From Sandaracinaceae bacterium (GTDB taxonomy: Bacteria > Myxococcota_A > Polyangia > Polyangiales > Sandaracinaceae), in contig JAHBWG010000093.1 of assembly GCA_019637095.1 (NCBI GenBank), positions 1 to 33,826 on the forward strand: DNA of 33,826 nt. The letters are read 5' to 3'. Below, piece by piece: positions 30,475-33,826 of the stretch. The notes below the pieces were generated by a model, which made no database searches, had not been told where the DNA came from, and was given only the letters and a program-made list of their open reading frames with translations. A program made the translations under genes and the position numbers. Each line of letters opens with the position of its first letter. Position 1 is the first letter of the stretch.

Positions 30475-31431
30475 CTACCTGCGGCGCGCGCGCCACGCGC
30501 ACGCGGCGAGGAACAGGACGGCGAGCCACGCGAGCGGCGGCGCGCGGCGCACCGCGCTGGTCGCGCAGCCGCCGCTGACGCCGGGGCTGCGATCGCCGGC
30601 GTCGGCCGCGCCCGCGTCGCGTGGGCTCGCCCCGCCGTCGGGATCGCTCGCGCCGCCGTCGGGATCGCTCGCGCCCGCGTCCTCGGCGTCGCCGGCGTCG
30701 ATCGCGCCCGGCCCCGCGTCCGCGCCGCCGCAACGCGACGGCGTCGGCGCGCCTGGGTAGCGGACCGCGAGCAGGTGCTCCAAGCCCGCGCGCACCGCGT
30801 CCGGCGGCCAGCTCGAGTGCCCGAAGCCCGCGCGCACGTCTGTCTCGTACGGGACGCCGAGCCGCGCCCACTGCGCCTCGAGCGCGCCCGCGGAGCCGCC
30901 CGTGTAGTTCGGATCGTCGGCGCCGTAGTACATCCGGATCGGCGCCGCGTGCGCCGGGTCCGAGCGCGACGCGATCGGATAGTGCGGCGCGGACATCGAG
31001 AAGACCGCCGCGATCCCCTCGCTGCCGTCGTACACGAGCAGGTACGCGAAGGCGCCGCCCGCGGAGTGGCCCGCGAAGTACGTACGCCGCGCGTCGATCG
31101 TGAGCTCGGCCTCGAGCGCGTCCATCCCCGCGGTGATCGCGGCCACGTCGCCGCCGCCCCAGCCCGCGCCCGCGGCCTGCGGCAAGAGGAGCACGGCCCC
31201 GAGCGCCTCGGCGTGGGGCTCGAGGTGCGCGTGGTAGCCCTCCGGCGTGCCGCCCGCGCCGTGCAGGAACACGACGAGCGGCGCCGGCTCGCACGCGCGC
31301 ACGGCGGACGGCACGAAGCGCGTCGCGCGGCGCCCGCCCGGCAGATCGAGGCTCGCCCAGCCCGGCGCCTGCGCGCGGGCGAGCGTTGGCGAGAGCGCGA
31401 GCAAGAGCGAGAGCGGGACGACGCAGCGCAT
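30475..31431 (-). CDS. Secreted alpha/beta hydrolase (polyhydroxybutyrate depolymerase/esterase-like) with MYXO-CTERM-like tail
   Basis: A 318-residue exported enzyme. Signal peptide 1-21 (cut near ARAQ). The oxyanion motif HGAGGTPEGY, nucleophile Ser123 in GHSAGG, acid Asp172 in GADDPNY and base His205 in GFGHSSW form a complete triad, as in LpqC/PHB-depolymerase-type esterases. Residues about 235-285 are an Asp/Ala/Gly linker with the short tandem SDPDGGA. The C-terminus has Cys289 in SGGCATS, a 13-17-residue hydrophobic helix and a final RARRR cluster, which is the architecture of MYXO-CTERM sorting tails that anchor or process proteins on the cell surface. ATG 31431. It probably digests extracellular ester polymers or prey material; substrate is unknown. 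Confidence 0.85.
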   Translation of the reverse strand: MRCVVPLSLLLALSPTLARAQAPGWASLDLPGGRRATRFVPSAVRACEPAPLVVFLHGAGGTPEGYHAHLEPHAEALGAVLLLPQAAGAGWGGGDVAAITAGMDALEAELTIDARRTYFAGHSAGGAFAYLLVYDGSEGIAAVFSMSAPHYPIASRSDPAHAAPIRMYYGADDPNYTGGSAGALEAQWARLGVPYETDVRAGFGHSSWPPDAVRAGLEHLLAVRYPGAPTPSRCGGADAGPGAIDAGDAEDAGASDPDGGASDPDGGASPRDAGAADAGDRSPGVSGGCATSAVRRAPPLAWLAVLFLAACAWRARRR

Positions 31432-31480: not shown

Positions 31481-32485
31481 GTGCGCCTCGCTCTCGCCCT
31501 CGGGCTCTCGCTCGGCGCCCTCGCCGCCGCGCGCGCCGAGGCGCAGCCGCGCGTGCTCGTCGCGACGAGCCCCGAGCTCGCGGCGCGGATCGCCGGACAG
31601 ACCGCGGATCTGCCCGTCGCGCTCGAGGAGGCGTCGCCGCCGGCCGACTTCGAGGCGGCCCTCGCGCTCGGCCGCGCGCGCGCGGCGCCCTTCGTGGTCT
31701 ACGCGCGCGAGCGCGAGGACGGCCTGACCATCCACGTCGTGGCGGTCGCCGCGCGGCGGATGCTCGCGCGCGCCGTCGACGGTGACGATCGCTCCGCGGC
31801 GCTCGAGGCCGCGGCGCTCATCGCGCGCGGCGCGCTCCGCGACCTCGCGGAAGGCGGCGAAGTCGGCGTCCTCGTGCCGCGCGCCGACGACGCGCCCGCG
31901 CCCTCGCCGCCGCCCGCGCCGCCGGCACCCGCGGCGCGAGCCTCCTCGGGCGCGGTCCGGCTCGAGCTCGGCTGGAGCGCCGCGCTCGACGGACACGCGC
32001 CCACGGGCGTGCAGGCCCCCTCGTTCGGCGGACTGCTCACGCACGAGCGCCTGCGCGCCGGCGTCCGGATCGAGGTCGCCTTGCCGGTCGAGCTCGCGGA
32101 CGAGCGCGCGGTCCTCGCGCTGTGGCGACTGCGCCCAGCCGCCGCGCTCGCCTTCGACGTGCTCGACCCCGGCGAGGTCGCCCTGAGCGTCGGCGTCGAG
32201 CTCGGCGCGGTCGTGTGGCACCGCGCGACCTCGGTGCGCCAAGCCGAGCTCGCGGCGACCGACGCGGCGTGGAGCGCGAGCGTCCTCGTCGCGCCGCAGC
32301 TCGCGCTCGAGCTCTTCCCTGCGGTCCTCGGCGGATCGGTCGGGATCGTCGTCGCGGCCGGGGCCGACATCCTGCCCTCCGCGCCCACCTTCGCGTACGC
32401 GCTCGACGGCGCGATCGTCGAGCGCGCCGCGCTCTTCGTGGTGCAGCCCTTCGCGCGCGTCACGCTCGCGGTGCGGGGAGGTTGA
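31481..32485 (+). CDS. Exported protein, probable outer-membrane protein, of the sigma-factor operon
   Basis: A 334-residue protein with a signal peptide (1-22, cut near AEAQ), an N-terminal alpha/beta-like half to about 130, a Pro/Ala linker (about 136-155) and a C-terminal half of alternating strands rich in Leu/Val/Ala (for example RAGVRIEVALPVEL, ALSVGVELGAVVWH, FARVTLAVRGG-COOH) that fits an outer-membrane or periplasmic barrel. No family is recognised. It lies 5 nt before the sigma factor start and should be co-transcribed with it, which suggests that it is part of the envelope stress circuit or its input. The GTG at 31481 is supported by TAGACT 6 nt upstream. Confidence 0.7.
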   Translation: MRLALALGLSLGALAAARAEAQPRVLVATSPELAARIAGQTADLPVALEEASPPADFEAALALGRARAAPFVVYAREREDGLTIHVVAVAARRMLARAVDGDDRSAALEAAALIARGALRDLAEGGEVGVLVPRADDAPAPSPPPAPPAPAARASSGAVRLELGWSAALDGHAPTGVQAPSFGGLLTHERLRAGVRIEVALPVELADERAVLALWRLRPAAALAFDVLDPGEVALSVGVELGAVVWHRATSVRQAELAATDAAWSASVLVAPQLALELFPAVLGGSVGIVVAAGADILPSAPTFAYALDGAIVERAALFVVQPFARVTLAVRGG

Positions 32486-32490
32486 GCCTC

Positions 32491-33099
32491 GTGACGAGCC
32501 CGCGTGACCCGGATCGGCCCGAGCCCGCCACGGAAGAGGCGGACGTGCCCCCGCGACCCCTCACCGTCGAGCCCTCCGACCCGCGCGTGCGCGCCGCGAT
32601 CGCCGGCGATCGGCGCGCGGCGCAGGCGCTGCTCGAGGGGCTCCTGCCGCGGGTGCGCAACCTCGCGCGCTACCTCCTGCGCGGCGACGGCGAGGTGGAC
32701 GACGTGGCCCAGCTCGCGTGCATCGAGATCTTGCGCGGGCTCGCCGGCTGGCGGGGCGAGGCGAGCCTCGAGAGCTGGGCGCTGCGCATCACCGCGCGCG
32801 TCGCGCGACGGCACGCGCGGCGCGAGCGCGCGCACGACCCGCGGCAGGTGCCGCCCGAGCTCTACGCGGTGCCGAGCCCCGACGCGGCGCCCGACGCGTA
32901 CCTCGAGCGCCGGCGGCTCGCCGCGCTGCTCGACCAGCTCCCGGACGCGCAGCGAGATGCGCTCGTGCTCCACCACGTCCTCGGCCTGAGCGTGCCGGAG
33001 ATCGCGGCCGAGCTCGACGTGCCGCAGGAGACGACGCGGAGCCGCCTGCGGCTGGGCATGAAGCGGCTGCGCGAGCTGCACACGGAGGGGGAGGCATGA
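32491..33099 (+). CDS. ECF-like RNA polymerase sigma factor
   Basis: A 202-residue sigma-70 family protein. Region 2 is at about 45-112 (LLPRVRNLARYLLRGDGEVDDVAQ, then LRGLAGWRGEASLESWALRI) and region 4 with its helix-turn-helix at about 142-195 (LPDAQRDALVLHHVLGLSVPE, then ETTRSRLRLGMKRLREL). Regions 1 and 3 are missing, as in extracytoplasmic-function sigma factors. About 35 disordered residues precede region 2. The start is GTG 32491, with GGGGAGG 9 nt upstream, in the gap after the preceding stop. It overlaps the next gene in ATGA, so it and its probable regulator are made together. Its promoter targets are not visible. Confidence 0.92.
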   Translation: MTSPRDPDRPEPATEEADVPPRPLTVEPSDPRVRAAIAGDRRAAQALLEGLLPRVRNLARYLLRGDGEVDDVAQLACIEILRGLAGWRGEASLESWALRITARVARRHARRERAHDPRQVPPELYAVPSPDAAPDAYLERRRLAALLDQLPDAQRDALVLHHVLGLSVPEIAAELDVPQETTRSRLRLGMKRLRELHTEGEA

Positions 33100-33826
33100 C
33101 CGATCGCGATCCGATCGACGAAGACCTCGAGGCGCTCTTGCGGCTCGACGGGCCCGGGCCGGCGCGGCGGCTGGCTCCGAGCGCGAGCGCGGCGCTGATC
33201 GGCGGGGCCCTCGACGCGTGGGAGACGCCGCCGATCGCCGCGCCCTCGCCGCCGGCCGCCGCCGCCGCGCCGTGGGCGAAGATCGCGCTCGTCGCCGCCG
33301 GCGTCGGCGGGCTCGTCGGCGCGGCGGTGACCGCGCTCGTGCTCTCGCTCGGGGACGCACCGAGCGCCGCGCCTCCGCCGCCGCCCGCGGACGTCGCGGC
33401 GGCCGCCGTCGAGGAGCTGCCCACCGCGAGCGACGACGGCGACGACGACGCGAGCGACGACACCGCGAACGACGACGACGCGAGCGACGACACTGCGAGC
33501 GACGACGGCGACGGCGCGAGCGACGACACTGCGAGCCACGACACTGCGAGCCACGACACTGCGAACAGCGACGGCGCGAGCGACGACACTGCGAGCGACG
33601 ACGGCACCGCGCCGCGGCTCGACGACGCGCGACCCGCGGCCCGCGCGCGCCGTGGGCCGCCCGCGCGACCGGAAGATCTCCTCGCGCTCGGCAACCGCCT
33701 CCGCGCCGAGCGCCGCTGGCGCGAGGCCGGGGACGCCTACGCCGCGGCCGCGCGCGCGCAGCCCGGCTCCGCGACCGCGCACGTCGCCGACGTGGCGGCG
33801 GCGGCGATCCGGCTCGAGCACCGGCG
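33096..33826 (+). CDS. Probable sigma-linked membrane protein (anti-sigma-like), partial, with D/S/T repeat and TPR-like end
   Basis: The frame from ATG 33096 (GGAGGGGGAGG upstream, ATGA overlap with the sigma gene) stays open to the window end and gives 243 residues, so the gene is incomplete. Residues 1-58 are a short cytoplasmic segment, 61-86 one membrane helix, 111-170 an Asp/Ser/Thr/Ala-rich repeat, and 188-243 a tetratricopeptide-like helical pair (LLALGNRLRAERRWREAGDAY). Position after an ECF-type sigma gene, a single membrane helix and a small cytoplasmic part are what anti-sigma factors have, but the canonical zinc-binding HxxxCxxC motif is absent from the visible part. Anti-sigma function is therefore inferred only from context. 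Confidence 0.7.
   Translation, partial: MTDRDPIDEDLEALLRLDGPGPARRLAPSASAALIGGALDAWETPPIAAPSPPAAAAAPWAKIALVAAGVGGLVGAAVTALVLSLGDAPSAAPPPPPADVAAAAVEELPTASDDGDDDASDDTANDDDASDDTASDDGDGASDDTASHDTASHDTANSDGASDDTASDDGTAPRLDDARPAARARRGPPARPEDLLALGNRLRAERRWREAGDAYAAAARAQPGSATAHVADVAAAAIRLEHR
33426..33605 (+). repeat. Low-complexity tandem repeat encoding A-S-D-D-T units
   Basis: About 180 bp built from near-identical units such as GCGAGCGACGACACT, with the 15-bp unit GACACTGCGAGCCAC present at least twice in perfect tandem near 33534-33563. All units keep the same frame and use the codon ACT for Thr, which is rare in the surrounding sequence, so the array looks recently expanded by slippage. It encodes a strongly acidic periplasmic stalk (residues 111-170). 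Confidence 0.85.

Follow-up and report, generated by a model that had tools for sequence, protein, structure and literature searches.

The tandem array at positions 33426 to 33605 of the window (the whole stretch of DNA that was analysed, 33,826 nucleotides of contig JAHBWG010000093.1 from a Sandaracinaceae bacterium) probably encodes a disordered periplasmic spacer, grown by slippage recently and in this lineage, within a length-tolerant part of a probable anti-sigma factor. Of this reading, the array itself, the duplication of its units as DNA, the linkage to a sigma factor gene, the order of the domains and the fast change of the linker are observed directly. The features concerned are the following.

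31481–32485, + strand: probable secreted protein gene, upstream, with no confident Pfam match
32482–33099, + strand: ECF sigma factor gene, frame open from 32482, start codon not settled
33096–33826, + strand: array gene, incomplete, encoding a probable anti-sigma factor, a single-pass membrane protein with a TPR domain
33096–33287, + strand: N-terminal segment, residues 1–64, predicted cytosolic, with an LDxxxGPA-type signature and no zinc motif
33288–33344, + strand: transmembrane (TM) segment, residues 65–83, by hydropathy
33345–33677, + strand: predicted periplasmic linker, residues 84–194 (111 residues), containing the array
33426–33605, + strand: tandem array, in frame, 60 codons (residues 111–170), with ASDDT, ASDDG, ASHDT, ANDDD and ANSDG variants
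33678–33826, + strand: start of the TPR domain, residue 195 onward, named from orthologs and cut by the contig end

The product of the ECF sigma gene matches Sigma70_r2 and Sigma70_r4 in Pfam, and the stop codon of the gene shares the ATGA at 33096–33099 with the start codon of the array gene. The contig end at 33826 cuts the array gene, and the C-terminus of the protein is absent from the window. When the missing part was sought elsewhere in the assembly with the TPR part of one ortholog as query, nothing convincing was found among 26 matches. A model of the window protein (mean pLDDT 50.4, low confidence) has no helix or strand in residues 87–182 and shows helices from residue 192. Pfam searches of the window protein at E up to 1 gave three sub-threshold low-complexity matches (BUD22, CDC45 and Herpes_LMP1) and no calcium-binding family.

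The sequence-only reading had placed the array at 33426–33605 and given it 60 residues, and both values are exact in the frame that opens at the ATG at 33096. The array divides into 11 units, of which nine measure 15 bp and the other two 24 and 21 bp. In order, their sizes are 24, 15, 15, 15, 21, 15, 15, 15, 15, 15 and 15 bp, and their peptides are ASDDGDDD, ASDDT, ANDDD, ASDDT, ASDDGDG, ASDDT, ASHDT, ASHDT, ANSDG, ASDDT and ASDDG. Aspartate makes up 24 of the 60 residues and lysine is absent. Tandem Repeats Finder (TRF) scores were 159 at period 15 and 196 at period 30. Codon self-matching at period 5 was 0.56 in the array versus 0.225 in shuffles, and none of 10,000 codon shuffles reached the observed value, so chance composition is rejected as the source of the array. 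The units had been described as near-identical copies of A-S-D-D-T, which is overstated: only four of the 11 read ASDDT, and the match between copies is 77–78% (TRF). The repeat is thus real, yet more worn than that description. Every unit is a multiple of 3, so that whole-unit changes of length keep the frame, as had been proposed. With such units, and lying inside the gene, the array is not a phase-variable contingency locus, in which frame or promoter spacing would shift.

The codons record how the units arose. ACT is used for five of the six threonines of the array, for none of the 59 threonines in five other coding stretches counted in the window, and for 13 of 2688 threonines (0.48%) in 106 gene-like ORFs from 400 kb of the same genome. 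ACT is therefore rare, as the sequence-only reading had said, but it is not kept in each unit, being found in five of the 11. Exact 15-bp copies, also claimed, were confirmed for three ASDDT units of the ACT type; in addition, the ASHDT variant is present as an exact tandem duplicate. Since ACT is rare elsewhere yet common in the array, and since exact unit copies are found, it is clear that the units were duplicated at the DNA level. The common rare codon and the exact duplicates likewise back the description of the array as recently expanded.

The protein belongs to a family of sigma-linked proteins. A profile built from seven orthologs matched 67 of 183 genomes of the order (E up to 1e-12) and 79 of 317 genomes of the class (E up to 1e-20). 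The 82 loci examined are a selection from these matches, made up of the window, the loci of the best matches in the order and class, and 40 more that were chosen. In 79 of the 82, the gene immediately preceding the partner gene encodes an ECF sigma factor, and a 4-bp overlap of the two genes as in the window was seen in 55 of the 82 when the start codon was picked by script. The remaining three loci differ: L108 starts where its contig does; a gap of 276 bp separates the end of a sigma frame from the opening of the partner frame in L089; and no sigma gene lies within the 685 bp that precede the partner gene in L095, where the closest one found, an ECF sigma gene, is on the opposite strand at a distance of about 1.35 kb. 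The partner gene of L095, a locus considered together with L183 (G150:C179), is of the zinc type. Together, the ATGA overlap, the single TM segment and the sigma gene directly upstream in 79 of 82 loci give good support to the earlier description of a sigma-linked membrane protein. L096 was left out of the family counts, its partner frame stopping before the TPR domain. This ortholog from a metagenome-assembled genome (L096:3460-3951) has a linker rich in Ser, Gly and Asp and lies on a short contig with a coverage of 0.9 in its name; the early end of the frame is possibly a sequence error.

Members share a common layout, namely a short N-terminus, one TM segment, a variable linker and a TPR domain. 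By simple patterns, GPA or GPV occurs in the first 60 residues of 46 of the 82 members and HxxxCxxC in the first 110 residues of 19; no member has both, and 17 have neither. In 23 aligned sequences, LDxxxGPA shows no variation at G and P and almost none at L and A. Pfam scans of 27 members found TPR_6 in 24, zf-HC2 in four, FecR in six and PEGA in four. The FecR and PEGA matches suggest a modular periplasmic half. L110, L116, L120 and L121 are long zinc-type members, FecR being seen by name for L120.

The neighbourhood of the gene pair is partly shared. A homolog of the secreted protein gene at 31481–32485 lies upstream of the sigma gene in at least 11 of 22 relative loci (nine on the same strand, two on the opposite), which is a lower bound, many of these loci holding less than 1 kb upstream. 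A gene for a DUF7305 lipoprotein-like protein follows the partner gene on the same strand in 14 of the 22 loci, lies upstream on the other strand in two (L057 and L058) and is not found in six; in L052 its start codon overlaps the partner gene's stop codon (GTGA). In one relative (L055:5295-6515, G017), NDAS repeats are present in the lipoprotein-like protein encoded downstream of the partner gene; across different species, acidic repeat tracts are thus found in two genes of the module.

The ECF sigma factor encoded by the overlapping gene is most likely the target of the window protein, which would act as its anti-sigma factor. Genes for anti-sigma factors usually adjoin their sigma gene (as described in PMC8103513), and the array gene fits this position, overlapping the ECF sigma gene. 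By hydropathy and domain scan, its product has the expected N-terminal segment, one TM segment and a putatively extracytoplasmic domain, the orientation being a prediction. Membrane anti-sigma factors of the zinc type (ZAS, zf-HC2) are likewise encoded by genes that follow and overlap an ECF sigma gene, and have an N-terminal segment, one TM segment and a C-terminal domain beyond it; moreover, relatives of the window protein that share its C-terminal domain carry the zinc motif. Unlike them, the branch of the window has an LDxxxGPA-type signature in place of HxxxCxxC, which is absent from the window protein and from the other GPA-type members. No zinc anti-sigma domain was found in the window protein by Pfam, profile alignment or motif pattern. 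No alignment was obtained between the GPA-type N-terminal profile and that of the zinc type (hhalign probability 0.3); against solved structures, the GPA-type profile gave three weak matches, none of them to an anti-sigma factor (best UipA, E 0.019). We infer the anti-sigma role from position, layout and zinc-type relatives, and not from the protein's own N-terminus.

The linker is the fastest-changing part of the protein, and it contains the array. Among 23 core members its length ranges from 59 to 112 residues, while complete TPR parts measure 111–138 residues (22 members, that of the window being cut). The pN/pS ratio is higher in the linker than in the TPR domain in six of six genome pairs, and alignment gaps fall in 76 columns of the linkers versus 16 of the TPR domains. 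Composition varies as well, Asp plus Glu making up from 7% to 30% of the linker across the 23 core members.

Arrays with a score of at least 100 were found in nine of the 82 partner genes, from eight lineages, in every case between the TM segment and the TPR part. An array as a conserved feature of the family is rejected, since only these nine genes reach that score. Their units are unlike one another (ASDDT, TEPTT, APEDT, EETPP, PLPSE and (TS)n), and when the period-15 array is mapped on a sigma factor tree of 22 rows, five changes are needed, of which well-supported branches force only two. The unlike units and the scattered placement point to a repeated, independent origin of the arrays. 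The partner proteins of L175 and L178 have (TS)n and FDSS repeats between the TM segment and the TPR part.

Periods of 15 or 30 were seen in five of the eight array lineages versus six of 23 arrays from the genome background (Fisher p = 0.09). Such an excess hints at a rule on length, which would not be expected under pure neutrality; a general rule of five residues in the linker is not established, given p = 0.09 and the occurrence of periods 6/24, 12 and 21. Just one pair of close species has an array (G005 and G008, with APEDT units); both of its linkers have 87 residues without gaps, at a pS of 0.02–0.04 by domain and none in the TM segment. In a pair without an array (G001 and G006), linker lengths differ by two residues. 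No second genome of the window's genus, and hence no array from a second strain, was present among the genomes searched.

We also infer a periplasmic placement and a spacer role for the linker. The array would encode part of a disordered, acidic linker that joins the membrane segment to a periplasmic TPR domain. The N-terminus may keep the sigma factor bound to the membrane, and the TPR domain, carried on a flexible tether, may act as a sensor or binding module for a periplasmic component. Such a linker would be a length-tolerant spacer, the tether growing and shrinking by whole codons. Replication slippage or unequal recombination, recent and in this lineage, would have produced the array in a weakly constrained region.

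An unlikely alternative, though the strongest of them, is that the array has no function of its own and amounts to neutral debris left by slippage in a genome where low-complexity tracts of Asp, Ala, Ser and Gly abound. Between the units of the array, pN (0.184) and pS (0.190) are nearly equal, as expected for a tract under little sequence constraint. In a background sample of 400 kb (20 stretches from three contigs of the same genome), 23 distinct arrays scored at least 100, 13 at least 159 and seven at least 196. The frames of these arrays were set by a crude codon-position score, which gave the wrong strand for the window array, and not all of the peptides are real. With 13 and seven background arrays at or above its own two scores, the notion that the window array is exceptional for its genome is rejected; it is ordinary there. 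Several DAG- or GASDA-type tracts in the sample come after apparent lipoprotein signal peptides, which also favours debris. What argues against the absence of any function is the linker as a whole: it has at least 59 residues in all 23 core members measured, and some requirement for a spacer is therefore likely.

Two further repeats were noted in this genome. A perfect 15-bp array of 23.9 copies with 100% match and DDADE units lies in a frame of 458 aa (L148:10077-10435, that is G000:C2:10077-10435); it is a far better candidate for a locus of variable copy number than the window array. Within the window, a GASDPDG-type repeat (30607–30681, − strand) lies near the C-terminus of the product of a 318-aa gene (30475–31431), where it directly precedes a Gly-Cys, hydrophobic and Arg-rich tail. 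We take this tail to resemble a MYXO-CTERM sorting signal.

It was also considered, following the sequence-only reading, that copy number acts as a rheostat: slippage would vary the length of the stalk among cells, set the reach of the TPR domain to its ligand or the exposure of a cleavage site, and so tune sigma output. The units are multiples of 3, and TolA of E. coli offers a direct precedent. According to PMC3477136, 13 imperfect repeats of 15 or 18 bp join the membrane anchor of TolA to its periplasmic domain, their number varies from 8 to 16 among 234 isolates, copy number affects stress tolerance, and contraction occurs at a frequency of 6.9e-5. Since repeats in a comparable position of TolA alter stress tolerance, the idea of tuning by copy number is sound in kind. 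Like TolA domain II, the window array consists of imperfect in-frame units, nine of the 11 being of 15 bp, between the membrane anchor and the C-terminal domain of an envelope protein. In contrast to the Lys/Ala-rich, α-helical TolA tract, that of the window is rich in Asp, Ser and Ala, has no Lys and, in a model of low confidence, has no predicted structure. TolA does not regulate a sigma factor, and its copy-number variation has been measured, whereas the window array is known from one genome. Several results weigh against the rheostat, which we regard as improbable: 73 of the 82 family genes lack any array that scores at least 100; linkers of 59–112 residues are tolerated among core members; the sole close species pair with an array keeps equal linker lengths; comparable or stronger arrays are many in other proteins of the same genome; and the window array is degenerate. 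Furthermore, in a plasmid assay reported in PMC3324548, S. aureus SD repeats of low copy number (8–29) were stable while those of high copy number were unstable.

Two other systems were compared. The staphylococcal SD repeats of ClfA and the Sdr proteins, as PMC3324548 describes them, are also Asp/Ser-rich tracts of envelope proteins whose copy-number changes keep the frame; they consist of SD dipeptides (18-bp unit) in surface adhesins, with far higher copy numbers in some, whereas the window has five-residue units in a predicted inner-membrane protein for which no adhesin domain is reported. Periscope Proteins (PMC9704523) resemble the window protein in that a repeat tract could make an extracytoplasmic stalk longer or shorter; theirs are repeats of folded domains forming rod-like stalks on cell-surface proteins, while the tract of the window is short and predicted to be disordered. 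A broader version of the rheostat would hold that 15-bp-biased arrays recur in the family linker and that the set point of a sigma regulator evolves through stalk length, a TolA-like rheostat on transcription; we give it little credence.

A chemical role for the acidic tract (binding of Ca2+ or other cations, contact with the cell wall or O-glycosylation of Ser/Thr, by which the state of the envelope would be sensed) is very improbable, for although 24 of the 60 array residues are Asp and tracts of Glu/Pro, Thr/Glu/Pro or Ser/Thr occupy this position in other lineages, the composition is not conserved (the 7–30% of Asp plus Glu given above) and Pfam detected no calcium-binding family at E up to 1.

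We know of no paper on this sigma-linked TPR family, and a literature search, conducted mostly by title and the opening of the abstract, found none. Should copy number turn out to set sigma activity, the array would offer a simple example of transcription being controlled through the length of a stalk. As a spacer only, it would add another example of turnover in a low-complexity linker of a high-GC genome. The more useful outcome is the family itself: its members, found across the class, are linked to sigma genes and combine a single TM segment with a TPR domain, and in some of them the zinc anti-sigma motif was lost, was replaced or never existed. The family predicts an anti-sigma domain marked by LDxxxGPA.
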